Source: Oleiharenicola lentus (GTDB taxonomy: Bacteria; Verrucomicrobiota; Verrucomicrobiia; Opitutales; Opitutaceae). From it: a stretch of DNA of 64,000 nt. Both the position numbers and the translations under genes were made by a program. The DNA lies in assembly GCF_004118375.1 (NCBI RefSeq), contig NZ_SDHX01000002.1, positions 671,001-735,000 of the forward strand, given 5' to 3'. Positions 9,064-21,079 of this stretch are shown here, in pieces. The notes beneath the pieces are model-generated. The model did not search any database, was not told where the DNA came from, and worked only from the letters and a program-made list of their open reading frames with translations. Position 1 is the first letter of the stretch. Every line of letters begins with the position of its first letter.

Positions 9064-9786
9064 ATGGAATCCCTCGAGCAACTCCGCGACCGCCTCCTGA
9101 CCCGCTTCCCCGCGGCCAAGGTCGAGCTTGTGCTCAATCCCGGCGCTTCGCCCGAGCATTCGCTGCTGCTCGAAGCCGCGTCCGCGCGGGAGATCGCGCT
9201 CTTCCTGCGGGACGACCCGTTCGTGAAGCTCGACTACTGCTCCAACGTCACTGGCCTCGACTGGCCCGACAAGGAGATCATCGAGACGAAGAAGGTCTCC
9301 GTGCCCGACCCGGCCGGCGGCCCGGCCAAGGTCGTCGAGGAAAAGACCAAGCGCCTTCAGCCCGGCTATCTCGAGGCCGTCTATCACCTCTACTCGATGG
9401 CGCTGAAGAGCACCGCGCCCGTCATCCTGCGCCTGCGCACCGTTAACCGCTCCGACCAGGTCACGCTGCCGTCGCTCACGCCGGTGTGGCGTTCCGCCGA
9501 TTTCCAGGAACGCGAGATCTACGACCTCTACGGCATCATTTTCGAGGGCCACCCCGACCTGCGCCGCCTGCTCATGTGGGACGGTTTCAAAGACCACCCG
9601 ATGCGCAAGGACTACGTCGCCCCCGACGACTTCGAGTGGGAGCCCACCCCGCACGGTGTCGTGCACGAGCGGGCGAAGGCCCATTATCCTTTGCCGGGCG
9701 ACCGGCTCGGACAAACACCGGCCGGCCAGCAGCCCGGAACGGTGTCGCCGGCCAATCCGACCACTCAACCGGAGGCGAAGCCATGA
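9064..9786 (+). CDS. nuoC: NADH-quinone oxidoreductase subunit C
   Basis: A 240-residue 30-kDa-type peripheral subunit, separate from NuoD. The signature [20 protein letters not shown] is present (about 149-168), followed by [14 protein letters not shown]. About 40 C-terminal Pro/Gln-rich residues extend past the conserved domain. It forms part of the connecting arm next to NuoB and NuoD. The nuoD start overlaps its stop by 4 bases. Confidence 0.96.
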
Positions 9787-10982
9787 ACCCTCCTCAGGTT
9801 TCAGGTTCCCAGTCTCAGGGTTCCTCCGGGCCGCTCGGCGGCCCGGCCGGCCCCACCGTCCGCGCCGTGCACGACGAGTTCCACGGCGACCTCCTCGAGG
9901 TCTCGATGGGCCCGCAACACCCGTCCACCCACGGTGTGTTTCGCATGATCGTGACGCTCGACGGCGAGCGCATCGTGAAGCTCAAGCCCGTCTTCGGCTA
10001 CCTCCACCGCAACCACGAGAAGATCGCCGAGTCCACGAGCTACCTGGCGTCGATGCCCTACACCGACCGGCTCGACTACCTCTGCTCGATGACGAACAAC
10101 TGGGCCTACGCGCTCGCGGTCGAGAAGCTCGGTGGTCTCACCGTCCCCGACCGCGCCCAATACCTGCGCGTCATCATGGCCGAGCTCACGCGCCTGGTGA
10201 ACCACAGCTGCCTCGTCGGCTTCCTCTTCAACGACCTCGGCACCTCGTTCACTCCGCTCCTCTACGCCTTCCGTGAGCGCGAGAAGATCCTCGACCTCTT
10301 CGAGGCCCTCAGCGGCTCGCGCATGATGTGCAACTACCAGCGCTTCGGCGGCTGCCGCGTGGACCCCTCGCCCGAGTGGCTCGCGGCGGCCAAGGCGCTC
10401 GTGGACAACTTCCCGCGCTTCCTCGACGAATACGAGACGATGCTCACGGGCAACGAGATCATGCTCGCCCGCACCCAGGGCGTCGGCCGCCTGAGCGCCG
10501 CCGACGCGATCAACGCCGGCATCACCGGCCCCATTCTCCGCGCCAGTGGCGTGGACTACGACCTGCGCAAGGTGGACGGCACCGGTTTCTACCCGCGCTT
10601 CGACTTCCGCGTCCCGCTCGGCGCGCACGGCGACACCTACGACCGCTACATGATGCGCATCCTCGAAATGCGCGAATCGGTGAAAATCCTCCAGCAGGCC
10701 TTCCGCGACCTGCCCGCCGGCCCGATCATGGACCCCAAGGCCAAGCTCCGCGGTTTCCGCCCCAAGGCCGGCGAAGCCTACGGCCGCCTCGAAGGCCCGA
10801 AGGGCGAACTCGGCTTCTACCTCGTCAGCGACGGCAGCCCGAATCCCTACCGCTACCGCGTCCGCCCGCCCTCCCTCATCAACCTCACCCTCCTTGAGGA
10901 CATGTGCCTTGGCCACACCATCGCTGACTCCGTCGTCATCCTCGGCTCCATCGACATCGTCCTGGGAGAAGTAGACCGATGA
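9783..10982 (+). CDS. nuoD: NADH-quinone oxidoreductase subunit D
   Basis: A 399-residue 49-kDa-type subunit that forms the quinone site with NuoB. The conserved blocks [39 protein letters not shown] and [14 protein letters not shown] are present, and it ends in [11 protein letters not shown], the usual C-terminus. I chose the ATG at 9783 (ATGA overlap with nuoC). The first 30 residues, Gly/Ser/Gln rich, are encoded by a TTTCAGGTTCC-type repeat and are not part of the conserved protein. At the 3' end a GGGAG and an ATG overlapping the stop (10979) look like a former start for the next gene. Confidence 0.96.
9795..9830. repeat. CAGGTTTCAGGTTCCCAG-type repeat inside nuoD
   Basis: Imperfect direct units (CAGGTTTCAGGTTCCCAG then TCTCAGGGTTCC) at the extreme 5' end of nuoD, read in frame as a [11 protein letters not shown] linker. 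Confidence 0.5.
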
Positions 10983-10987
10983 ACCTG

Positions 10988-11113
10988 TTTTCGATTTTTG
11001 ATTCTCGATTTTCGATTGCCGGCCCGACGCCGGCGAATCGCCCAGCCGTATTCTCGCTTCGCGCCGGCTGACCGTCTCCATCAATCGAAAATCGAGAATC
11101 CAAAATCAAAAAT
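10988..11113. repeat. Family C palindromic repeat (TTCGATTTTTGATT) between nuoD and nuoI
   Basis: A long AT-rich inverted repeat: left arm from 10988 (TTTTCGATTTTTGATTCTCG onward), right arm about 11082-11113 (CAATCGAAAATCGAGAATCC onward), with a GC-rich centre. It separates two operon genes that would otherwise probably touch. Confidence 0.85.
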
Positions 11114-11119
11114 CCCACC

Positions 11120-11761
11120 ATGCTCGGCTCCGGCATCCTCAAAGGCCTCGCAGTCACCGCGAAAAATTTCGTGGGGAGCTATCATGACCCGGCCCGGATG
11201 GTGACGCAGGAATACCCCGACGTCCCCGCCAAGCTTCCGGCGGCCTACCGCAATTTCCCGTTCCTCGTCACGGAGAACGCCACCGACCCGATGGGCACGC
11301 TGCGCTGTGTCGCCTGCCAGATCTGCGAGAAGGAATGCCCGCCGCAGTGCATCTACATCGAGAAGAGCAAGGACAAGAAACCCGACGCCACCGGCAAGCC
11401 CCAGATCTACCCCGCCGTCTTCGCCATCGACACCGCCGTGTGCATGAGCTGCCAGCTCTGCGTCGAGGTCTGCCCGTTCGACGCGATCAAGATGGACCAG
11501 GTGTTCGAGATTGCCGCGACCGACCGTTTCACCGGCCTGCTCCTCAACCGCGAGCAGCTCGCCAAGCCCAACACCTACTTCCACCAGATCCACCCCGAGG
11601 AAGCCGCCGAGGTGGACGCCCGGCTCAACGCCGAACGCAAGGCCGCCGAGGAAAAGGCCAAGGCCGCCGCGGCTGCGGCGGCTGCGAAAGCGGCGGCGCC
11701 GAAACCGGCCGCGGGAGCAGCGCCCACCCTGCCGCCCACCACCGGAGGCCCTTCAGCATGA
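11120..11761 (+). CDS. nuoI: NADH-quinone oxidoreductase subunit I
   Basis: A 213-residue 8Fe ferredoxin-like subunit. The two [4Fe-4S] motifs are CVACQICEKEC (Cys63, 66, 69, 73) and CMSCQLCVEVC (Cys108, 111, 114, 118). It carries electrons between the input module and N2 in NuoB. A Lys/Ala-rich C-terminal tail (about 165-213) is unusual in length. nuoI lies before nuoH here, the reverse of the common order. The stop is overlapped by an ATG (11758) preceded by GGAGG, the apparent old start context of the next gene. Confidence 0.95.
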   Translation: MLGSGILKGLAVTAKNFVGSYHDPARMVTQEYPDVPAKLPAAYRNFPFLVTENATDPMGTLRCVACQICEKECPPQCIYIEKSKDKKPDATGKPQIYPAVFAIDTAVCMSCQLCVEVCPFDAIKMDQVFEIAATDRFTGLLLNREQLAKPNTYFHQIHPEEAAEVDARLNAERKAAEEKAKAAAAAAAAKAAAPKPAAGAAPTLPPTTGGPSA

Positions 11762-11895
11762 CCTCCACACCCCGCCCTGTCGGGCACCCCTCTCCAGAGG
11801 GGATTTCCGACCAGCTTTCCATCAGCCTGAGATCCCCTCTTGAGAGGGGTGGCGCGAAGCGCCGGGGTGTGGTTCCGGAGGATTCCCGGCCATGA
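11758..11895 (+). CDS. Bridging small ORF between nuoI and nuoH (45 aa)
   Basis: An ORF that starts with an ATGA overlap on the nuoI stop (GGAGG nine bases upstream) and ends with a TGA that overlaps the nuoH ATG by 4 bases. Its body is almost entirely the family E palindromic repeat. The peptide (MTSTPRPVGHPSPEGIS and onward) has no recognisable domain. Its likely role, if any, is to carry ribosomes across the inserted repeat and keep nuoI and nuoH coupled. Whether it is translated is unknown. Confidence 0.4.
   Translation: MTSTPRPVGHPSPEGISDQLSISLRSPLERGGAKRRGVVPEDSRP
11765..11872. repeat. Family E palindromic repeat (CACCCCTCTCCAGAGGGG) between nuoI and nuoH
   Basis: Inverted arms of about 40 bases: CCACACCCCG to CAGAGGGGAT on the left, and GATCCCCTCTTGAGAGGGG to GGGGTGTGG on the right. 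Each arm contains a smaller hairpin. Confidence 0.85.
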
Positions 11896-13118
11896 GCGAT
11901 TTCCTCGAAGTCATTCCGCTCGTCGTGCGCGACTGGATCGTGGAGCTATTCCCGACCCCGCTCCAGTGGCTCGTCCACCATCTGCTCACGATCGCCGTCA
12001 TCCTGACGTTTTTTGGCCTGTTCTTCGCCTTCACGACCATCGCCGAGCGCAAGCTCCTCGGCCGCCTCCAGAATCGCCTCGGCCCCAACCGCGCGGGCGT
12101 GCCGAAACTCTCGATCCTGCCCTTCCATCTGAAACACAAGCTCTGGGGCCTCACCCAGCCCTTCGCCGACGCCGTGAAGGCGCTGACCAAGGAGGACGTC
12201 ATTCCCGACGCCGCCGACAAGGTCCTGCACTTCCTCGCCCCCGTCTGCATCGTGGCGTTCTCGCTGCTCGGCTTCGCCGTGCTGCCCTTCGGCCGCGCAC
12301 TCATCCCGGTCGAACTCGACGCCGCGCTACTCTACTTCTTCGCCGCCGGCACGGCCACCGAGCTGGCCATCTTCATGGCCGGCTGGGGCAGCCGGAACAA
12401 ATACTCCCTGCTCGCCGCCATGCGCGCCCTCGCCCAGCTCATCAGCTACGAGTTGCCGCTGATTCTCTCCGTCGTCCCCGCCGTGCTCGTCGTCGGCACG
12501 CTCTCCCTCCGCGAGATCGCCGAAGCCCAGGGCGGCTGGATCTTCGGTTTTCTCCCGCACTGGCACGTGTTCACGCCGTGGGGCTTCGCGGGCTTCATCA
12601 TCTTCCTCATCGCGGCGCTCGCCGAGAGCAACCGCTCGCCCTTCGACCTGCCCGAGGCCGAGAGCGAGCTCATCGCCGGCCACCTTACGGAATACTCCGG
12701 CTTCAAATACGCGCTCTTCTTCATGGCCGAGTATTTCGGTCTCACCGCCCTCAGTGGGCTCGGCGTCACGATCTTCCTCGGCGGCTGGCAGGCGCCGTTC
12801 GCCTTTCTGGAGTTCATCCCGTCCTACCTCTGGTTCATGCTCAAGCTGGCCGGCATGATTGTGTTCTTCATCTGGGTGCGCGGCACGCTGCTCCGCCTGC
12901 GCATCGACCAGCTGACGCGCCTTTCCTGGCAGTTCCTCGTGCCGCTGGCCCTGATCAATCTCGTGAATGGCGCCTTCTGGGCCCTCACCCCCGGCTGGTC
13001 CGGACCGATGCTCGCGGTCCGCTGGGCCGTTTCCGCGGCCCTCATCGTGATCCCCTTCCTCCTGCTGGCCCGCCGCCTCAACCCCGGCCGTGGTCCGCGG
13101 ACCTACCGGTATGCATAA
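11892..13118 (+). CDS. nuoH: NADH-quinone oxidoreductase subunit H
   Basis: A 408-residue membrane subunit linking the quinone site to the proton channels. Conserved features are AERKLLGRLQNRLGPNRAG near residue 50 and the charged loop AESNRSPFDLPEAESEL (about 244-260), with eight or more hydrophobic helices. A CCGGAGG precedes the ATG. It is probably coupled to the bridging ORF in front of it. Confidence 0.96.
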   Translation: MSDFLEVIPLVVRDWIVELFPTPLQWLVHHLLTIAVILTFFGLFFAFTTIAERKLLGRLQNRLGPNRAGVPKLSILPFHLKHKLWGLTQPFADAVKALTKEDVIPDAADKVLHFLAPVCIVAFSLLGFAVLPFGRALIPVELDAALLYFFAAGTATELAIFMAGWGSRNKYSLLAAMRALAQLISYELPLILSVVPAVLVVGTLSLREIAEAQGGWIFGFLPHWHVFTPWGFAGFIIFLIAALAESNRSPFDLPEAESELIAGHLTEYSGFKYALFFMAEYFGLTALSGLGVTIFLGGWQAPFAFLEFIPSYLWFMLKLAGMIVFFIWVRGTLLRLRIDQLTRLSWQFLVPLALINLVNGAFWALTPGWSGPMLAVRWAVSAALIVIPFLLLARRLNPGRGPRTYRYA

Positions 13119-13214
13119 TTACGATTTACGAGTTACGAATTACGATTGCCGGATCTCCGTCGGCGACAGGCCCATGCTTGGGCATGCCCAAATCGTAACT
13201 CGTAAATCGTAAAT
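13117..13214. repeat. Family B palindromic repeat (AATTACGATTTACGAG) between nuoH and nuoJ
   Basis: Left arm 13117-13147 (AATTACGATTTACGAGTTAC onward) and right arm 13191-13214 (AATCGTAACTCGTAAATCG onward), around a GC-rich centre. Related copies lie at 23518-23606 and about 25239-25268. Confidence 0.85.
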
Positions 13215-13225
13215 CTGAAATCCCC

Positions 13226-13732
13226 GTGATCGCCCTCGCCATCATCGCCCTCCTGACCTTCGCCGCTGCGATCTCAGCTTTCGTCCTCCGAAATCTGATC
13301 CACAGCGTGCTGCTGCTTGTCGGCGCCTGGGCGGGCATCGCGGCCTTCTACCTCTGGGCCGGGGCCGAGTTCGTGGCCTTCGCCCAGGTGCTGGTTTATG
13401 TTGGCGCGGTCTCGATGGTCGTGCTCTTCGCCGTGCTGCTGACGCGTCAGGGTGCGACGACCGCGCCGGTGGAGTTCGATTCCCTCAAGCGCGGCGTCTT
13501 CGGCTTCGTCGTGGCCGGTGGCGTCGGCGGACTCCTGGTCGGCGCGATCTTGGGCAGCCCGCTTGATGTGCACACCGCCGCGACGAATCCCGCGGTCTCC
13601 GTGAAGGAACTGGGCCACCTGCTCATGGGCCCACACGCCGCGGCCCTGCTCATTGTCGGCGTGCTGCTGACCGTCGCCCTGCTCGGGGCGATGGTCATCG
13701 CCGCCAGCGACAAACCGGAGGATACCCCGTGA
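13226..13732 (+). CDS. nuoJ: NADH-quinone oxidoreductase subunit J
   Basis: A 168-residue subunit with five hydrophobic helices and the conserved [15 protein letters not shown] segment (TM3). The start is GTG at 13226, just past the family B repeat. There is no good Shine-Dalgarno sequence in front, and the stop is overlapped by the nuoK GTG (GTGA). Confidence 0.94.
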
Positions 13733-14040
13733 GCCCGCTGCAACTCTGCCTCCTGTTCTCCAGCCTGCTCTTCTGCGTCGGGCTCGCCGGTGCGCTGTCG
13801 CGCAGCAACACCATCCTCGTGCTCCTCGGCATCGAGCTGATGCTGAACGCCGCCAACCTCAACTTCATCGCCTTCTGGCGCTACGGCCCGCACCCCGAGG
13901 CCGGCACCGGTCTGATCTTCGTTTTGTTCGCCATCGCCGTCGCCGCCGCCGAGGCCGCCGTTGGCCTGGCGCTCGTCATCGCCATCCACCGCCACCGGAA
14001 GTCCATCCGCCTGCAGGAGGCGAACTCGCTCAAAGGCTGA
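13729..14040 (+). CDS. nuoK: NADH-quinone oxidoreductase subunit K
   Basis: A 103-residue subunit with three helices. The conserved channel glutamates are in [12 protein letters not shown] (TM2) and [12 protein letters not shown] (TM3). The GTG start overlaps the nuoJ stop by 4 bases. Confidence 0.95.
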
Positions 14041-14045
14041 ACTAC

Positions 14046-14175
14046 CGCGGATTACACGGATGAACACGGATAAATTCATAATTCCCGGAACCTGTCATTC
14101 TGAGCGCAGCGAAGAATCCAGCGGCACGACCGCCTGCGCACGTCATTCTGGATTCTTCGCTCCGCTCAGAATGAC
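14046..14175. repeat. ATCCGTG-type repeat plus family A palindrome between nuoK and nuoL
   Basis: 14046-14074 is the ATCCGTG-type unit (GGATTACACGGATGAACACG). 14094-14121 and 14148-14175 form a perfect 28-bp family A inverted repeat. An ORF from ATG 14060 runs through both repeats and ends at 14236, overlapping the nuoL ATG by 4 bases; unlike the other bridging ORFs it does not touch the nuoK stop. Confidence 0.85.
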
Positions 14176-14232
14176 ACGCAGAAGCGAATCGGTTCGTCCG
14201 CGTCCATTCGCGACATCCGCGGAAAATCTTTC

Positions 14233-16257
14233 ATGACCTTGGCCGCGCAACACCTCTGGCTCATCCCCGCTCTGCCGCTCGCCGCGGCGGCGGTCGGCGC
14301 GTTGACGCCTCGCAGCGGACGCTCCCTCGCCGCCGGCGCCGCGATCGGAGCGATGGGCGCTTCTCTCCTGCTTTCGTGCCTTGCCCTCGCCGGGGCCTTG
14401 GCCGATCACGCCGCGCATCAGGTGTTCAACTTCGCCTGGTTCGATCTCGGGGCCACGTCACTCCGCCTTGGCTTCCTGCTCGACCCGCTCACGGCCTTCA
14501 TGTGCGTGATGGTCACCTTCGTCGGCCTGTTGATCTTCATCTTCAGCACCGGCTACATGCACGAGGACCGCAACGCCAAACAGTTCTTCTGCTTCCTCAG
14601 CCTCTTTGCCGCCGCGATGCTCGGACTGCTCGTCGCCAACAGCCTGCTCCTGCTCTTCGTCTGCTGGGAACTCGTCGGCCTCGCCTCCTACCTGCTCATC
14701 GGTTTCTGGTTCCACAAACCCGCCGCGGCGGCTGCCGCCAAGAAGGCCTTCATCACGACGCGCATCGGCGACCTCGGTTTCCTCCTCGGCCTGCTCTGGC
14801 TGCAGGACGCCCAGGGCACGCTGCTCTTCTACGACGGCGGCGCGGGCATCCTCGAACCCGCCGCGCTGGCCAATCTCTCTATCCTGCTTCCGTGCGGTCT
14901 CGCCGCCTCCACCGCCATCGGCCTGCTGCTCTTCTGCGGCGCCGTCGGCAAGTCCGGCCAGTTCCCGCTGCACGTTTGGTTGCCCGATGCGATGGAAGGC
15001 CCGACGCCCGTCTCCGCCCTCATCCACGCCGCCACGATGGTCGCCGCCGGCGTGTTCCTCATCGCACGCATCTTCCCGCTGATGTCCGCCGACCAAGGGC
15101 TGGCCGGAGTCCCGGTCCATGCACTGAGCGTCGTTGCCTTCATCGGCGCCATCACGGCCCTGCTCGGCGCCCTGATCGCTGTCGCGCAAAATGACATCAA
15201 GCGCATCCTCGCTTTCTCCACCGTCTCCCAGCTCGGCTACATGATGCTGGCCCTCGGCGTCGGTTCGTGGGTCGCAGCCATCTTCCACCTGCTCACCCAC
15301 GCCTTCTTCAAGGCCCTGCTCTTCCTCGGCGCCGGCTCCGTCATCCATGCCGCCCACCACGAGCAGGACATCCGCCAACTCGGCGGGCTGTCGGGCAAGA
15401 TGAAGGTCACCTTCATTACCTTCACGATCGGCACGATGGCCTTGGTCGGCGTGCCGCTGCTCTTCTCCGGTTTTTGGTCCAAGGAAGCCATCCTCCACGC
15501 CGCCCACGGCTGGGAGGTTTCCCATCTGCCCTTCTACGTCGCCCTGTTCGGCGTGGTGCTCACCGCCTTCTACAACACGCGCCTGATGGCCGAAACTTTC
15601 TTCGGGAAACCCCGCTCGCACGCCGCCGAACACGCCCACGAGAACAAACCGGCGATGACCCTCCCTCTCGTCATCCTCGCCGTCTGCGCCATCGGTCTGG
15701 GCTTCCTCAACACGCCCGCCTGGCCCTGGCTTGACGCCAAACTGCTCGGTCGCACCGAGGTCCATGGCCACTCCCTCTTCGAAGGCGCCGGCCTGATGGG
15801 CCTTTCGGTGGTCCTCGTCGCCATCGGCATCGGCGCCGGCTGGGCGCTGTATGGCCGCCGCCCGCGCGCCACCGCCACCTCGCCCGATCCGCTCGCCACC
15901 CAGGCCCCCGGGGTCATCGCCGCTTTGGCCGCCCGCCTCGGCTTCGACGAACTCTACGGCGCCACGGTGATCCGACTCACCGACGCCTTCGCCTCGCTCA
16001 GCGCCTTCCTTGAAAAATGGGTCTGGGACGGCGCCGTCCGCTTCCTTGCCGCGCTCGGTGAGTTCACCGGCTCGACTGGACGTGACACCGACGAGCAGGT
16101 GCTCAACGGCGGCTTCGACGCTACCAGCGAAAAGCTCCGCGGCACCGGCACCGCCTACTCCAAGGCCCAGACCGGTGACGCCCACGGCTACCTTCGCACG
16201 CTCGCCCTCGGCGTGGTGTTCCTGCTCATCCTCGTGATTTTGGGAGGTGCGCGATGA
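14233..16257 (+). CDS. nuoL: NADH-quinone oxidoreductase subunit L, extended C-terminal region
   Basis: A 674-residue antiporter-type subunit at the distal end of the membrane arm. The proton-path residues are present: Glu in CWELVGLASYLL and Lys in AVGKSGQFPLHVW. From the DELYGATV motif (residue 572) to the GYLR before the last helix there are about 80 residues, against about 50 in E. coli NuoL as I remember it. This is the amphipathic lateral helix that lies along the other pump subunits. The extension fits a longer arm with an extra NuoM. The stop TGA is overlapped by an ATG at 16254. Confidence 0.95.
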   Translation: MTLAAQHLWLIPALPLAAAAVGALTPRSGRSLAAGAAIGAMGASLLLSCLALAGALADHAAHQVFNFAWFDLGATSLRLGFLLDPLTAFMCVMVTFVGLLIFIFSTGYMHEDRNAKQFFCFLSLFAAAMLGLLVANSLLLLFVCWELVGLASYLLIGFWFHKPAAAAAAKKAFITTRIGDLGFLLGLLWLQDAQGTLLFYDGGAGILEPAALANLSILLPCGLAASTAIGLLLFCGAVGKSGQFPLHVWLPDAMEGPTPVSALIHAATMVAAGVFLIARIFPLMSADQGLAGVPVHALSVVAFIGAITALLGALIAVAQNDIKRILAFSTVSQLGYMMLALGVGSWVAAIFHLLTHAFFKALLFLGAGSVIHAAHHEQDIRQLGGLSGKMKVTFITFTIGTMALVGVPLLFSGFWSKEAILHAAHGWEVSHLPFYVALFGVVLTAFYNTRLMAETFFGKPRSHAAEHAHENKPAMTLPLVILAVCAIGLGFLNTPAWPWLDAKLLGRTEVHGHSLFEGAGLMGLSVVLVAIGIGAGWALYGRRPRATATSPDPLATQAPGVIAALAARLGFDELYGATVIRLTDAFASLSAFLEKWVWDGAVRFLAALGEFTGSTGRDTDEQVLNGGFDATSEKLRGTGTAYSKAQTGDAHGYLRTLALGVVFLLILVILGGAR

Positions 16258-16391
16258 ATCAGGGTTCGCGCCTTCTCGTAGCCGCGCTTGAATCCCGCAC
16301 CGGCGGGATGAAAGCGTGGTGGATTGATTCAACCACGTTGTCGCTTCGTTCCAACGCGGCTACAGTCAAACGCCTCGGAGGTGCGCGATGA
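16254..16391 (+). CDS. Bridging small ORF between nuoL and nuoM1 (45 aa)
   Basis: Starts with an ATGA on the nuoL stop (GGAGGT upstream) and ends with a TGA overlapping the nuoM1 ATG by 4 bases, 138 bases in all, the same length as the nuoI/nuoH bridge. It ends RLGGAR, echoing the ILGGAR end of NuoL because of the 15-bp duplication. It has no recognisable domain; a role in ribosome transit is inferred. Confidence 0.4.
   Translation: MNQGSRLLVAALESRTGGMKAWWIDSTTLSLRSNAATVKRLGGAR
16278..16363. repeat. Family D palindromic repeat, copy 2
   Basis: GTAGCCGCG (16278-16286) and CGCGGCTAC (16355-16363), with inner AAAGCGTGG and CCACGTTGTCGCTTCGTTCC as in the copy at 7452-7517. Confidence 0.8.
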
Positions 16392-17905
16392 GCCTCCTCT
16401 CCTGGATTGTCTTCACCCCTTGGATCGGCGCACTGCTCGTCTTCCTGCTGCGCTGCAAACTTTCGCCCCGGCTCGGGCGCCTGCTGCCCATCGTCTTCAG
16501 CCTCTCCACCCTCGCCCTCGGCCTCCTCGCGCTCACCCGCTTCGACCCGGCGGTCACCGGTCTGCAGTTCGTGGAGAAACAACCGTGGATTCGGGCGCTG
16601 AACGTCCGTTACCACCTAGGCCTCGACGGCCTGAGCCTCGTGCTCGTGCTGCTCACCGGCCTGCTGGCCCCGCTCGCGCTCCTCGGCACCACGCGCACCG
16701 CTCGCTGCCCGGCCATCCACGGTGCGCTCTTCCTCCTCCTGCAGGGCAGCGCCCTCGGCGTGTTCCTCGCCTTGGATTTCTTCCCCTGGTTCATCTTCTG
16801 GGAACTGAGCCTCGTGCCGGCCTTCTTCCTGATCAAATTCTGGGGTGGCCCCGGCTCTTCCCGCGCCGCCTACCAGTTCGTGATCTACACCATCGGCGGC
16901 AGCGCCTTCATGCTGCTGGGCTTCGCCGCCCTCTACGCCGCCACCGGCACCTTTGATTTCACCGAACTCGCCGCGCTCGCCCGGGCCGGGATGATTGCCG
17001 AACGCCTCGCCACTTTCGGCGGCTTATGGCCGCAGGCCGTCTTCCTCGGCGTCCTCCTCGGCCTCGCGGTCAAGGTTCCGCTCTTCCCCTTCCATGCCTG
17101 GCTGCCCCCGGCCTACGCCGAGGCCCCGACCGGCACCTCGATGTTCCTCACCGGCGTGATGTCCAAGATGGGCGTCTATGGTTTCCTGCGCATCCTCTGG
17201 CCGATCTTCCCGCAACCGCTGCAGGCCGCCGCGACGCCCCTGCTCTGGCTCGCCCTCGCCGGGGTGGTGCTCGGCGCCTTCGCCGCGATGCGGCAGACCG
17301 ACCTCAAGCGGCTCGTCGCCTACTCCTCCATCAACCACCTGAGCTACTGCCTGCTGGCGCTCTTCGCGGTCGCGGCCGGCGGCGCCAGCAACCCGGCAGC
17401 CACGACCGCCGCCCTGAGCGGCGCGGTCCTCCAGATGTTCAACCACGGCCTCTCCGCCGCGGCGCTGTTCTTCTGCGTGGGCGTGCTGGAAGACCGTTCC
17501 GGCGGCCAACGCGGCCTCCACGACTTCGGCGGCGTGCGCTCCGCCGCGCCGGTCTTCGCCGGTTTCTGCGGCATCGCGCTGTTCTCCTCGCTCGGCCTGC
17601 CAGGCCTCAACGGCTTCGTGGGCGAGTTCCTCATCTTCCGCGGCGTCTTCGGCCTGACCCCCTGGATCGCCGCCATCGCTACGCTCGGCCTGCTCGCCAC
17701 CGCGCTCTTCCTCCTGACCTTCTGGCAACGCGTCTTTCACGGCCCAGCGGCGGGGGCCGGCGTGGGCTTCCGCGACCTCGATTTTACCGAGAAGGCCACG
17801 TTGCTTCCGCTCCTCGTGCTCATGTTCGCGCTCGGCATCTGGCCCCAGCTTCTCGCCGGCCTCATCAATCCGCTCGTCACCGCCTGGGCGACCTCCCTGC
17901 CATGA
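16388..17905 (+). CDS. nuoM: NADH-quinone oxidoreductase subunit M, first copy
   Basis: A 505-residue antiporter-type pump with about 14 helices. All key residues are in place: TM5 Glu in FWELSLVPAFFLI, TM7 Lys in LAVKVPLFPFHAWLP, TM8 Lys in VMSKMGVYG and TM12 Glu in GFVGEFLIF. It is therefore the canonical NuoM of the pair. The ATG at 16388 has GGAGG eight bases upstream. A second, divergent NuoM follows after 193 bases of repeat DNA. Confidence 0.95.
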   Translation: MSLLSWIVFTPWIGALLVFLLRCKLSPRLGRLLPIVFSLSTLALGLLALTRFDPAVTGLQFVEKQPWIRALNVRYHLGLDGLSLVLVLLTGLLAPLALLGTTRTARCPAIHGALFLLLQGSALGVFLALDFFPWFIFWELSLVPAFFLIKFWGGPGSSRAAYQFVIYTIGGSAFMLLGFAALYAATGTFDFTELAALARAGMIAERLATFGGLWPQAVFLGVLLGLAVKVPLFPFHAWLPPAYAEAPTGTSMFLTGVMSKMGVYGFLRILWPIFPQPLQAAATPLLWLALAGVVLGAFAAMRQTDLKRLVAYSSINHLSYCLLALFAVAAGGASNPAATTAALSGAVLQMFNHGLSAAALFFCVGVLEDRSGGQRGLHDFGGVRSAAPVFAGFCGIALFSSLGLPGLNGFVGEFLIFRGVFGLTPWIAAIATLGLLATALFLLTFWQRVFHGPAAGAGVGFRDLDFTEKATLLPLLVLMFALGIWPQLLAGLINPLVTAWATSLP

Positions 17906-18102
17906 ATGCCGCTGCCACATTCGCCACCTGTCATCCTGAGCGCAGCGAAGGATCCAGAAGAATTTTCGAAACTGGCTGCGCGGACGAAGCTCCTGCTGGA
18001 CTCTTCGCTTCGCTCAGAGTGACAGGTATCGAAGGTTGTTACGATATCCCGAACACAGGCGCTCAGCACTCCGCGCTCAGCACTCCACCTTCCGCCTCAT
18101 GA
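17902..18102 (+). CDS. Bridging small ORF between the two nuoM genes (66 aa)
   Basis: Starts ATGA on the nuoM1 stop and ends with a TGA overlapping the nuoM2 ATG by 4 bases. The body is the family A palindrome plus a GCTCAGCACTCC duplication. Its first bases (ATGAATGCCGCTGCC) resemble the nuoM2 start (ATGAACGCCCTGCCC), which suggests a duplicated start region. The Shine-Dalgarno sequence is weak. The peptide shows no domain. Confidence 0.35.
   Translation: MNAAATFATCHPERSEGSRRIFETGCADEAPAGLFASLRVTGIEGCYDIPNTGAQHSALSTPPSAS
17930..18023. repeat. Family A palindromic repeat, copy 4
   Basis: Left arm 17930-17957 (GTCATCCTGAGCGCAGCG onward) and right arm 17996-18023 (ending CGCTCAGAGTGAC). A few mismatches mark it as an older or different copy. 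Confidence 0.85.
18061..18086. repeat. Tandem GCTCAGCACTCC
   Basis: GCTCAGCACTCC at 18061-18072 and again at 18075-18086, immediately upstream of nuoM2. Confidence 0.7.
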
Positions 18103-19622
18103 ACGCCCTGCCCTGCACCATCTACGTTTCCTTCCTCGGCGCGGCCCTTGCGCTGGCGGCCGGGACGCGCTCGGCGGCGGCGGCGCGGATCGTGGCTCTC
18201 CTCACCGCCCTGACCGCCTGGGGCATCACCCTCGCCGCCGCCCGCAGCTTCGTGCCGACCGCCGGCCTGCAGGAACTCGTCAACGCCGCGTGGATTCCCG
18301 AGCTCGGCATCCGCTACCACCTCGCGGCCGACGGCATCAGCCTGACCTTGCTCGTGCTCACCGGCCTCGCGGCCACGGCGGGCGTGCTCTTCTCCTGGAA
18401 CATCGAGCACCGCACCGGCGAGTTCTTCGCGCTTTACCTCGCGCTCATCGGCGGCGTTTACGGCGTGTTCCTCAGCGCCGACGCCTTCGTCCTCTTTGTC
18501 TTCTACGAGATCGCCATCGTCCCGAAGTATTTCCTCATCGCGAACTGGGGCTCCACCAACCGCGAATACGGCGCAATGAAACTCGTGCTCTACTCCTTTG
18601 CGGGTAGCGCGCTCGTCCTCGCCGGCCTGCTCTGGGCCTACGGCGCTGGCCACGCCACGGGCTTCGGTTTTCCCGAACTCATCGCCGCCACCGGCCGCCT
18701 CGGCCTCCCCTCGCAGGTCGGTGTGGTCGCGCTGGTCTTCACCGGCTTCGCCACGCTCGCGGGCATGTTCCCGCTGCACACCTGGGCCCCGACCGGCCAT
18801 GTCGCCGCACCAACCGCCGCCTCGATGCTGCTGGCCGGCGTGGTCATGAAACTCGGCGCCTACGGCTGCCTGCGCGTGGCCCTGCCGCTCTCCCCCGAGG
18901 CCTTTGCCCTGCTCCAGCCTTATATCGCGTGGCTGGCCATCGCCGGAATCCTCTATGCCGGCTGCGTGGCGCTGGTGCAGGAGGACTTCAAGTTCGTCAT
19001 CGGCTACTCGAGCGTGAGCCACATGGGTTTCGTGCTCCTCGGCCTCGCCGCCGCCAACCCGGCCGCCGTGAGCGGCGCGGTCTTCCAGATGTTCTCGCAC
19101 GGCGTCGTCGCCGGCCTGCTCTTCGCCGTCGTCGGCCGCATGGTCTATGAGCGCACCCACACGCGCCGCCTCGCCGACCTGCGCGCGATGCCGCTGCACA
19201 AGCTGATGCCCTTCGCCGCCGTCGTGTTCGTGCTCGCCGGCCTCGCCTCCATGGGCATCCCCGGCTTCAGCGGCTTCCCGGCCGAGCTGACCATCCTCAT
19301 CGGCTCCTGGCAGGCCAACCCGGTCTGGGCTCTGGCCGCGGCCACCGGCGTCCTCATCGCCGCCGCCTTCACGCTGCGCGCCATCCAAGTGTCGTTCTTC
19401 GGCAAGGTGGAGCGCGGCGTCCCCCACGCGCTTGAGCGCGTTGAGAGCAACGCCCACCACCACGATTTCCCGCCCATCACCTGGCCCGAAAAGCTTGGGG
19501 CCCTGCTTCTGCTCGGCGCGACGATCTACCTCGGCCTCAGCCCCGATACCCTGTTCAACTGGATCCGCCCCGCGCTCCAGTCGCCCGTCTTCCAGTCCAT
19601 CCTGACCGGAGGTGCCTCATGA
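18099..19622 (+). CDS. nuoM: NADH-quinone oxidoreductase subunit M, second copy, TM7 lysine absent
   Basis: A 507-residue NuoM homologue. The TM5 Glu (FVFYEIAIVPKYFLI), TM8 Lys (GVVMKLGAYG) and TM12 Glu (GFPAELTI) are kept. The TM7 Lys of the VKxPxxPLH motif is replaced: the segment reads GFATLAGMFPLHTW. It is clearly paralogous to NuoM1 but diverged, so it is unlikely to be a recent duplication. It probably adds a fourth antiporter-type module to the membrane arm. I chose the ATG at 18099. The stop overlaps nuoN by 4 bases. Confidence 0.92.
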   Translation: MNALPCTIYVSFLGAALALAAGTRSAAAARIVALLTALTAWGITLAAARSFVPTAGLQELVNAAWIPELGIRYHLAADGISLTLLVLTGLAATAGVLFSWNIEHRTGEFFALYLALIGGVYGVFLSADAFVLFVFYEIAIVPKYFLIANWGSTNREYGAMKLVLYSFAGSALVLAGLLWAYGAGHATGFGFPELIAATGRLGLPSQVGVVALVFTGFATLAGMFPLHTWAPTGHVAAPTAASMLLAGVVMKLGAYGCLRVALPLSPEAFALLQPYIAWLAIAGILYAGCVALVQEDFKFVIGYSSVSHMGFVLLGLAAANPAAVSGAVFQMFSHGVVAGLLFAVVGRMVYERTHTRRLADLRAMPLHKLMPFAAVVFVLAGLASMGIPGFSGFPAELTILIGSWQANPVWALAAATGVLIAAAFTLRAIQVSFFGKVERGVPHALERVESNAHHHDFPPITWPEKLGALLLLGATIYLGLSPDTLFNWIRPALQSPVFQSILTGGAS

Positions 19623-21079
19623 CCGCCGACTACGCCGGACTCTTCCACGCCCTGCGCCCCGAAATCCATCTCGTGGCCGGCGCCCTGCTCGTGCTGGGTT
19701 TCGACCTCGCCTGGGCCCGCCACCGCCCGGCCAACCGCCATCATGTGGCCCTCCTGCTCGGCACCATCGCGCTGCTCATGGCCGGCTACGAAGCCGCCAC
19801 CCTGGGTGCCACGGGACGCGTCTTTGGCGGCGCCTTCTTCTACGACCAGCTGGCCAACCTCACGCGGACCGGCGTGATCGGCCTCGCCGTGCTTGCGCTG
19901 GCGCTGTTGCCGCACTCCGCGAAACTCCGTCATCCCGCCGAGTTCACCGCCATCCTGCTCTTTGCCACCACCGGCTTCAGCCTGATGGCCGCAGCCAACA
20001 ACCTGCTCGTTGCCTTCGTCGCGCTCGAACTGGCCAGCCTCTCGCTCTACGCGCTGGCCGGCTTCGACAAGACCAGCCCGGCTTCCGCCGAGGCGGCGCT
20101 CAAGTATTTCCTGTTTGGCGGCATGTCTGCAGCCTTCCTGCTCTTCGGTTTCAGCCTGCTCTACGGTCTGACCGGCTCGATCAACCTGAACTACATCGCC
20201 GCCCACCTCGCCCAGGCCCAGTCGCCGCTGCTGATCGTGGCGCTGGTGATGATCCTCGCCGCCTTCGGCTTCAAGGCTGCCGCCGCGCCCTTCCATCTCT
20301 GGGCGCCCGATGTCTATCAGGGCGCGCCCGCCCCTGCCGCCGCGCTCATTGCCTCGGCCTCGAAACTCGCCGGCCTCGTGCTCTTCACCCGCCTGCTCTG
20401 GCCCGGACTCGGCGCTGCCGCCGGCACGGTGGCCCACACGCCGATCACCGTCGGCTGGGCCCCGGTGGTCGCGCTGATCGCCGGCGCCTCGCTGCTGCTG
20501 GGCAATATCGGCGCCCTCGCGCAGTCGAACGTTCGCCGCCTGCTCGCCTACTCCGCCATCGCCCACGCCGGCGCGCTCCTGCTCGGCGTGCTCGCCGCCG
20601 GCCGCGTCGGCCCTGGCTCGCTGTTCTACTACGCCGCCACCTACGGCCTTGCCACGGTCGGCGCCTTCGGCGTCATCGCCGCGCTGGAATCCTCAGGACG
20701 CGTTCAATCGCTCACCGATCTGGCCGGCTTGTCTAAGCGCTCGCCCTTCCTCGCCGGCTGTCTCGCGATTTTCATCCTCTCGCTCGCCGGCATCCCGCCG
20801 CTCGCCGGTTTCTTCGGCAAGTTCGCGGTCTTCGCCTCCGTGCTCAAGGTCGGCGGCCTCGCCGGTCCCGCCGGCTGGCTCGTGATCCTCGCCATCGCGC
20901 TGAGCGCCGTGGCGCTTTACTACTACCTGCTGATCCTGAAGCAGGCGCTCGTCGCAGGAGTAGCGGCAGACGCCGCCCCGGTGCGCGTGCCCCTGCCCGC
21001 ACGCCTGTCGCTGCTGATCGCCGCCGCACTCATCGTGCTCTTCGGTGTGTGGCCCTCGCTGCTGCTGGGGTTGTTCTAA
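19619..21079 (+). CDS. nuoN: NADH-quinone oxidoreductase subunit N
   Basis: A 486-residue antiporter-type subunit adjoining NuoK. Glu in ALELASLSLYAL and Lys in GFKAAAAPFHLWAPDVYQGAP are the conserved proton-path residues. It is the last gene of the operon; its TAA overlaps the stop of the convergent four-helix-bundle gene (CTAA), and I see no terminator hairpin between them. Confidence 0.95.
   Translation: MTADYAGLFHALRPEIHLVAGALLVLGFDLAWARHRPANRHHVALLLGTIALLMAGYEAATLGATGRVFGGAFFYDQLANLTRTGVIGLAVLALALLPHSAKLRHPAEFTAILLFATTGFSLMAAANNLLVAFVALELASLSLYALAGFDKTSPASAEAALKYFLFGGMSAAFLLFGFSLLYGLTGSINLNYIAAHLAQAQSPLLIVALVMILAAFGFKAAAAPFHLWAPDVYQGAPAPAAALIASASKLAGLVLFTRLLWPGLGAAAGTVAHTPITVGWAPVVALIAGASLLLGNIGALAQSNVRRLLAYSAIAHAGALLLGVLAAGRVGPGSLFYYAATYGLATVGAFGVIAALESSGRVQSLTDLAGLSKRSPFLAGCLAIFILSLAGIPPLAGFFGKFAVFASVLKVGGLAGPAGWLVILAIALSAVALYYYLLILKQALVAGVAADAAPVRVPLPARLSLLIAAALIVLFGVWPSLLLGLF

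Follow-up and report, generated by a model that had tools for sequence, protein, structure and literature searches.

Open reading frames bridging repeat inserts at stop/start overlap junctions in the complex I operon of Oleiharenicola lentus and related Verrucomicrobiota: candidate relay cistrons

Introduction

What becomes of two genes with overlapping stop and start codons when a palindromic repeat arrives between them? The question is raised by the complex I (nuo) operon of Oleiharenicola lentus, which lies in a 64,000-nucleotide (nt) stretch of contig NZ_SDHX01000002.1 (assembly GCF_004118375.1, positions 671,001 to 735,000), referred to here as the window. Six gene gaps of this operon are filled by inserts of 107 to 193 nt, with inverted repeats listed in five of the six, and three of the inserts are spanned by open reading frames (ORFs), referred to as bridges, that share an ATGA with the gene on either side. 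An earlier note had described these three ORFs, judged them unlikely to arise by chance and proposed that they may be selected to pass ribosomes through the palindromes. Comparison with relatives bears out the judgement on chance (P about 2e-17 with similar inserts collapsed), and the bridges are concentrated at junctions where other genomes have intact stop/start overlaps. We consider it highly probable, from these comparisons of sequence, that the three ORFs act as relay cistrons, keeping termination-reinitiation coupling in place across RNA hairpins.

Results

The three bridges

The coordinates of the three ORFs, the ATGA at each end and the stop-free frames are all exactly as first described, with lengths of 138, 138 and 201 nt (Table 1). 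Each insert also matches other places in the examined parts of the genome, in agreement with their description as repeat DNA. Inverted repeats are listed for bridges 1 and 2 and none for bridge 3, which contains a degenerate motif with 156 genome occurrences at no more than two mismatches (0 for a reversed-pattern control). Stops inside the inserts close the frame of the downstream gene at 11841 (nuoH), 16325 (nuoM) and 17937 (nuoM2), and the bridges are thus not N-terminal extensions. The nuoD-I and nuoH-J gaps had been named as unbridged, which they are, and so is nuoK-L; the nuoK-L insert and bridge 3, the latter at an overlap junction, belong to a single repeat family. Taken singly, the bridges in the window have a chance of 0.19 (nuoI-H), 0.14 (nuoL-M) and 0.06 (nuoM-M2) under a null in which the insert interior is shuffled with dinucleotides kept and 0-2 bases removed.

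Bridges and overlaps at the same junctions in relatives

All three bridged junctions are present as intact 4-nt overlaps in relatives, including G003, placed by the nuo tree as sister to the window genome (G000) plus G020. Other relatives carry an insert at the same junction, often of different sequence, with ATGA or GTGA at both ends, and the seven nuoM-M2 bridges need six changes on the tree. Junctions were classed in nuo and dcw loci, and subsequently in his and ATP synthase (atp) loci, by the number of intact stop/start overlaps in other genomes; those with at least two are referred to as overlap junctions, and gaps of about 40 nt or more as inserts. In the nuo and dcw loci 39 of 51 inserts at overlap junctions are bridged, against 0/12 at junctions with a single overlap and 1/88 at junctions with none. 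The corresponding figures for his and atp are 7/14 (all 14 in his), 0/7 and 2/103, the last two being 51-nt ORFs over a short hairpin in ATP synthase loci. Summed over both sets, 46/65 inserts are bridged at overlap junctions and 3/191 where there are no overlaps (Fisher P about 1e-31, with rows treated as independent). The 10 flagellar and 15 ATP synthase loci contain no insert at junctions with at least two intact overlaps.

The bridged and unbridged inserts are distributed by junction as follows. In nuo these are nuoM-M2 (7 bridged, 0 not), nuoL-M (4, 0), nuoH-J (4, 4), nuoI-H (2, 1), nuoJ-K (1, 1) and nuoM2-N (1, 0); in dcw they are ftsW-murG (10, 0), murC-ddl (8, 5) and murG-murC (2, 0), with one further junction of the combined set at 0 and 1. 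In his, five of five inserts are bridged at hisH-hisA, one of one at another junction, one of six at hisF-hisI and neither of two at hisB-hisH.

Chance expectations

Overlap codons stand at both ends of 42 of the nuo and dcw inserts, and these fall into frame classes of 39, 2 and 1, with 6.3 bridges expected under the shuffling null. Collapsing alignable inserts at the same junction leaves 27 events; bridges make up 24 of these, where the null expects 4.5 (P 1.7e-17; P 3e-9 from frame class alone). The his inserts with overlap codons at both ends give a similar result, with 7/8 bridged against 1.6 expected (P 6e-5). The gene caller, which used codon usage and no overlap information, placed the downstream start at the bridge end in 37/39 nuo and dcw bridges and in 7/7 his bridges.

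Sequence, peptide and frame of the inserts

The 51 nuo and dcw inserts at overlap junctions form 25 groups without detectable mutual similarity, and the same junction is filled by different sequences in different genomes. Twelve of the 25 alignable same-junction pairs listed were compared, each pair being either one old insert or two arrivals of one family. Substitutions are spread over the codon positions as 81, 89 and 87 (10 pairs, with the frame counted on the first member), and given this flat distribution no peptide constraint is seen. In the nine pairs with two bridges, 25/32 alignment gaps have lengths indivisible by three, and still the frame is open in both members; the three pairs with one unbridged member differ in length by 7, -7 and 13 nt. 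Net length differences between bridges are all multiples of three, and these were discarded as evidence, since this follows from the definition of a bridge. Codon usage is above that of a shifted frame, although none of 39 bridges lies above the 5th percentile of gene pieces. Folding is stronger than in shuffled sequences, with z below -2, in 28/39 bridges; the repeat nature of the relatives' inserts rests on this folding and on visual inspection. Together with the junction counts, these patterns support the selection proposed in the earlier note, with the frame of the bridges maintained and the peptide not.

Start signals

Shine-Dalgarno (SD)-like motifs precede 25/40 bridge starts and 25/40 downstream starts, against 13% of places within inserts. 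Their presence follows the junction: both sides have one in 10/10 bridges at ftsW-murG and 5/5 at nuoL-M, and at nuoM-M2 the motif is found at 0/7 bridge starts, 0/7 downstream starts and 0/23 intact overlaps. For these nuoM2 genes, coupling is the sole visible start signal.

Origin of the overlap codons

At nuoL-M the SD motif and overlap codon are duplicated, exactly in G000 and nearly exactly in G020 and G007, which suggests local duplication on insertion at this junction. Of 16 flank positions compared there, left and right share 12 to 14 in G000, G007 and G020, 11 in G012 and 7 in X079. As a general origin of the overlap codons, target-site duplication finds no support: in the 40 bridges, left and right flanks resemble each other on average no more than flanks from different genomes do (7.75 against 7.58 of 16). 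The nuoL-M and nuoM2-N bridges of G020 (L061) have the same length and resemble each other in sequence, left flanks included, a hint that whole bridges may be copied from junction to junction. Four Y1_Tnp (RAYT-like) matches are present in the genome, one of them at G000:C1:1944717-1945043, and are candidate movers of palindromic repeats.

The nuo operon of the window

The operon has the gene order nuoD-I-H-J-K-L-M-M2-N, assigned from Pfam matches and, for nuoM2, from identity to NuoM, so that tandem NuoM-like subunits precede NuoN (L-M-M-N, 16388-21079). A second cluster with three antiporter-like genes matching NuoM lies at G000:C1:959676-964391. A scan of the window with Rfam at gathering thresholds found one tRNA and nothing else, and a literature query with the repeat words returned a lone, unrelated match.

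Table 1. Genes, bridges and inserts of the nuo operon, in coordinates of the window.
Feature	Position	Strand	Basis and remarks
nuoD (49 kDa subunit)	9783..10982	+	Pfam Complex1_49kDa over 9486-10982; start from codon-usage gene caller
nuoD-I palindromic insert, unbridged	10983..11119	+	relatives without intact overlap at this junction; internal control
nuoI	11120..11761	+	4Fe-4S families; gene position
Bridge ORF 1, 45 codons, nuoI-H	11758..11895	+	ATGA at both ends, stop-free; inverted-repeat arms 11770-11807/11829-11866; repeat DNA
nuoH	11892..13118	+	NADHdh
nuoH-J palindromic insert, unbridged	13119..13225	+	junction overlaps in relatives; counterexample
nuoJ	13226..13732	+	Oxidored_q3
nuoK	13729..14040	+	Oxidored_q2; intact GTGA overlap with nuoJ
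nuoK-L palindromic insert, unbridged	14041..14232	+	repeat family of bridge 3; one intact overlap among relatives; internal control
nuoL	14233..16257	+	Proton_antipo_N and _M
15-nt exact direct repeat, left copy (GGAGG motif and ATGA)	16243..16257	+	
Bridge ORF 2, 45 codons, nuoL-M	16254..16391	+	ATGA at both ends; arms 16278-16292/16349-16363; repeat DNA
15-nt exact direct repeat, right copy (GGAGG motif and ATGA)	16377..16391	+	
nuoM	16388..17905	+	Proton_antipo_M
Bridge ORF 3, 66 codons, nuoM-M2	17902..18102	+	ATGA at both ends; holds motif with 156 genome copies
nuoM2, second NuoM-like subunit	18099..19622	+	37% identical to nuoM; nuoL and nuoN matched less strongly
nuoN	19619..21079	+	Proton_antipo_M; intact ATGA overlap with nuoM2

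Materials and Methods

The nuo set comprises the loci of 17 relatives together with 18 of 80 loci from a contig scan, kept where title or identity indicated Opitutaceae, Opitutae or Verrucomicrobia; three of these (L078, L083 and L094) are duplicates of G012, G008 and G006 and were dropped. The dcw set has 18 loci, the flagellar set 10, the his set 12 and the atp set 15. The his (hisF) and atp regions were named for testing before the search, and the hisA-hisF spacing was visible in a listing before the DNA was taken. Orthologues were grouped, and junctions were classed if present in at least four loci. MurG was identified by its family; hisF apart, the remaining dcw and his gene names were assigned by reading protein starts and gene order.

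The downstream start was taken as the bridge end for bridges and as the called start for other inserts, and gaps under 40 nt were coded as overlap in the trees. A 9-nt ORF first scored as a bridge was removed from the totals. Two ORFs (L181 and L192) whose ends fall on an alternative start, well upstream of the start called for the gene, are in no total, nor is the nuoI-H gap of L079, where a 138-nt ORF ends on ATGA in the nuoH frame and the candidate start lies 96 nt from that expected, beyond the 60-nt limit. The G020 nuoL-M bridge is outside the junction counts and null tests and is included in the flank analysis of 40 bridges. The unbiased sample of G000 consists of 40 stretches plus the window, 864 kb in all (18% of the genome), with 428 co-directional pairs and gaps of 40-400 nt.

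Discussion

In the mechanism we propose, the ancestral junctions would have been 4-nt stop/start overlaps, at which a ribosome ending one gene can start the next, and palindromic repeats would then have arrived at these junctions. Such an insert would part the genes by more than 100 nt, with a hairpin following the stop codon, and reinitiation is reported to suffer from distance and from structure alike. Coupling in E. coli reporters is almost abolished at about 20 nt and is 80-90% reduced or lost at 38 nt (PMC10666635, cited from excerpts, as are the other articles given by PMC number), and a stable structure just after the stop codon lowers expression of the next gene, which the authors conjecture to reflect a block to the scanning but not the elongating ribosome (PMC7518266). 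Given these reports, coupling should be weaker across a hairpin insert of 100-200 nt and should be regained where an ORF runs through the hairpin. Where the insert is open in the one frame that serves and is bounded by overlap codons on both sides, the ribosome could translate across the hairpin and begin again at the downstream gene, and selection would keep the frame and both overlap codons and ignore the peptide. Translation of the bridges by ribosomes is our inference, and so is the view that selection favours reinitiation and not some other consequence of translation.

Chance is a very improbable explanation for the bridges. It would have GC-rich palindromic repeats often open, and the frame match a matter of luck or of start-codon choice. 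Such DNA is indeed poor in stops, since 16/42 inserts still bridge with their interiors reverse-complemented, and the excess in the unbiased sample of G000, given below, is weak. The nulls preserve dinucleotide composition, however, the frame class alone is 39/42 where one third is expected, and start calls blind to overlaps match the bridge ends. It is just as hard to credit that the bridges are genuine small genes with meaningful peptides. They are open frames with a start and a stop inside conserved operons, but peptides at the same junction are unrelated and are not kept across relatives, the substitution pattern is flat, codon usage is not that of genes, and relatives with intact overlaps carry no ORF there.

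Two further alternatives concern shielding of the mRNA and mobile cassettes. Untranslated stretches of mRNA can cause polarity, and translation of the insert might shield the message from Rho or RNases, with exact reinitiation at the downstream start secondary. Most bridges are structured (28/39), as shielding would have it; it gives no need, however, for an ORF to end precisely on the next start codon, and inserts of similar length in the same operons are unbridged (0/10 bridged at nuoD-I and 0/8 at nuoK-L), so that we regard it as improbable. Somewhat less improbable, though still unlikely, are MIRU-like elements, in which a repeat-borne ORF with built-in overlap codons moves as a cassette into overlap sites, so that the architecture would belong to the element and would not reflect selection at the junction. 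This architecture is described for mycobacterial MIRUs (PMC12548453), and several inserts here would suit it: those at nuoL-M and nuoM2-N of G020 are alike, including GGAGGTGCGC.ATGAACCC at the left, those of G018 (nuoJ-K) and G007 (nuoL-M) have a similar small hairpin at their end with GGAGG behind it, and the local duplications at nuoL-M are exact. Against cassettes stand the 25 insert groups without detectable similarity, the single family that gives both bridge 3 and the unbridged nuoK-L insert in the window, and flanks that within a bridge are on average no more alike than across genomes.

Several observations weigh against relay cistrons as the explanation. Nineteen of the 65 inserts at overlap junctions are unbridged, including 4/8 at nuoH-J (one of them in the window), 5/6 at hisF-hisI and 5/13 at murC-ddl; four of the five unbridged murC-ddl gaps fall in one clade (G002, G006, G008 and G014). 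In G022 (L075), which is of another genus of the same family and was left out of the nuo and dcw junction counts, gaps of at least 40 nt occur at 5/6 nuo overlap junctions and none is bridged, which would bring the total to 46/70; a further gene may lie in its nuoI-H gap, which is about 1 kb long. The nuoI-H insert of G012 is out of frame though alignable to two bridges. Coupling over 73 nt and over 150-850 nt has been reported earlier (cited in PMC10666635). Among 62 nuo loci of other phyla, where gene matching was looser, seven inserts at overlap junctions are bridged and 44 are not. The unbiased sample of G000 gives a weak excess, with 9/26 gaps with two overlap codons bridged against 3.6 expected (P 0.005), and without the three nuo bridges this becomes 6/23 against 3.1 (P 0.08). 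The genome-wide excess that the earlier note had called for is therefore weak in the sample as a whole and becomes marginal once the nuo bridges are set aside. It is at junctions with overlaps in relatives that the signal is strong, and the survey is weak probably because most co-directional gaps never were overlaps.

Some of these loci have features of their own. The metagenome-assembled genome G012 (L202 and L064) accounts for 4/12 unbridged nuo and dcw inserts, yet it holds several bridges. At hisF-hisI (L226-L237) the upstream stop is CTGA, CTAA or ATAA, with no overlap codon, in 4/5 unbridged inserts, and this junction may be one that gave up coupling. Two more 87-nt bridges are found in G000, in neither case within the operons compared, at L158:12148-12226 and L158:19266-19344 (G000:C1:40001-60000), with perfect stems of 14 and 12 nt.

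The bridged inserts of other phyla include those of Acidimicrobiia loci L106, L114 and L151, and bridges in these nuo operons would be an early sign of relay cistrons outside Verrucomicrobiota. In the longer loci of other phyla, 13 gaps have both overlap codons, with frame classes of 9, 2 and 2 and six bridged. In L106, where the nuo operon is of Acidimicrobiales, the 120-nt bridge ORF at 15683-15802 is built from a short unit present twice in tandem, which is reminiscent of MIRU. Whether relay cistrons are a general bacterial gene class we regard as evenly balanced. Its members would be selected only as open, in-frame and overlap-coded at both ends; repeats in strongly coupled junctions would survive mainly in this form, with an interior that turns over freely, and many genomes in several phyla would carry such ORFs, ignored or misannotated as small proteins.

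If the bridges are relay cistrons, natural genomes, and not reporters, would provide the evidence that overlap coupling is strong enough to decide which insertions survive. The dependence of a junction on coupling may then be readable from whether its inserts are bridged. ORFs selected as ORFs and not as proteins would also bear on small-protein annotation and on de novo gene birth, as bridge frames would supply translated, unconstrained peptides.

Among known systems, ATGA-overlap termination-reinitiation (PMC6728339, PMC10666635) has the same -4 overlap, here restored on both sides, and a strong dependence on distance; there two genes share the overlap, whereas here the two genes are separated by a third cistron with no conserved peptide. 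Rickettsia palindromic elements (RPEs) are likewise of several palindromic families kept in reading frame (PMC10969869). As described there, however, an RPE is located within a gene and contributes to its protein, whereas here the neighbours keep their own stop and start, and no in-frame fusion into a gene product is seen, with upstream stops intact and downstream frames closed inside the inserts. REP/BIME and MITE sequences are also short, palindromic, multi-copy intergenic DNA (multi-copy being shown for the window inserts), but the parts of the literature found make no mention of relay cistrons that run in frame from one gene to the next. Enterobacterial RU elements (PMC2759123) are likewise small mobile repeats with used ORFs, but by the excerpt these are fused into genes and do not serve coupling. 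Bridges of this kind in Verrucomicrobiota, or for many repeat families, are not described among the literature matches listed, outside which subscription papers mostly lie.

The closest precedent, compared by description and not by sequence, is the MIRU (mycobacterial interspersed repetitive unit). These are short repeats at gene starts with an internal ORF coupled at -4 nt to the downstream gene, an arrangement explained as limiting harm to expression (Supply et al. 1997, via an excerpt of the review PMC12548453), and NTGA at the downstream start of the 40 bridges matches it in sequence arrangement. The bridges differ in that they derive from many dissimilar inserts (51 in 25 unlinked groups) and not from one family, and in that they occur in another phylum. 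For the bridges, moreover, the same junctions can be compared in their intact overlap form, and there is evidence of a frame that persists at the junction as sequence and peptide vary.

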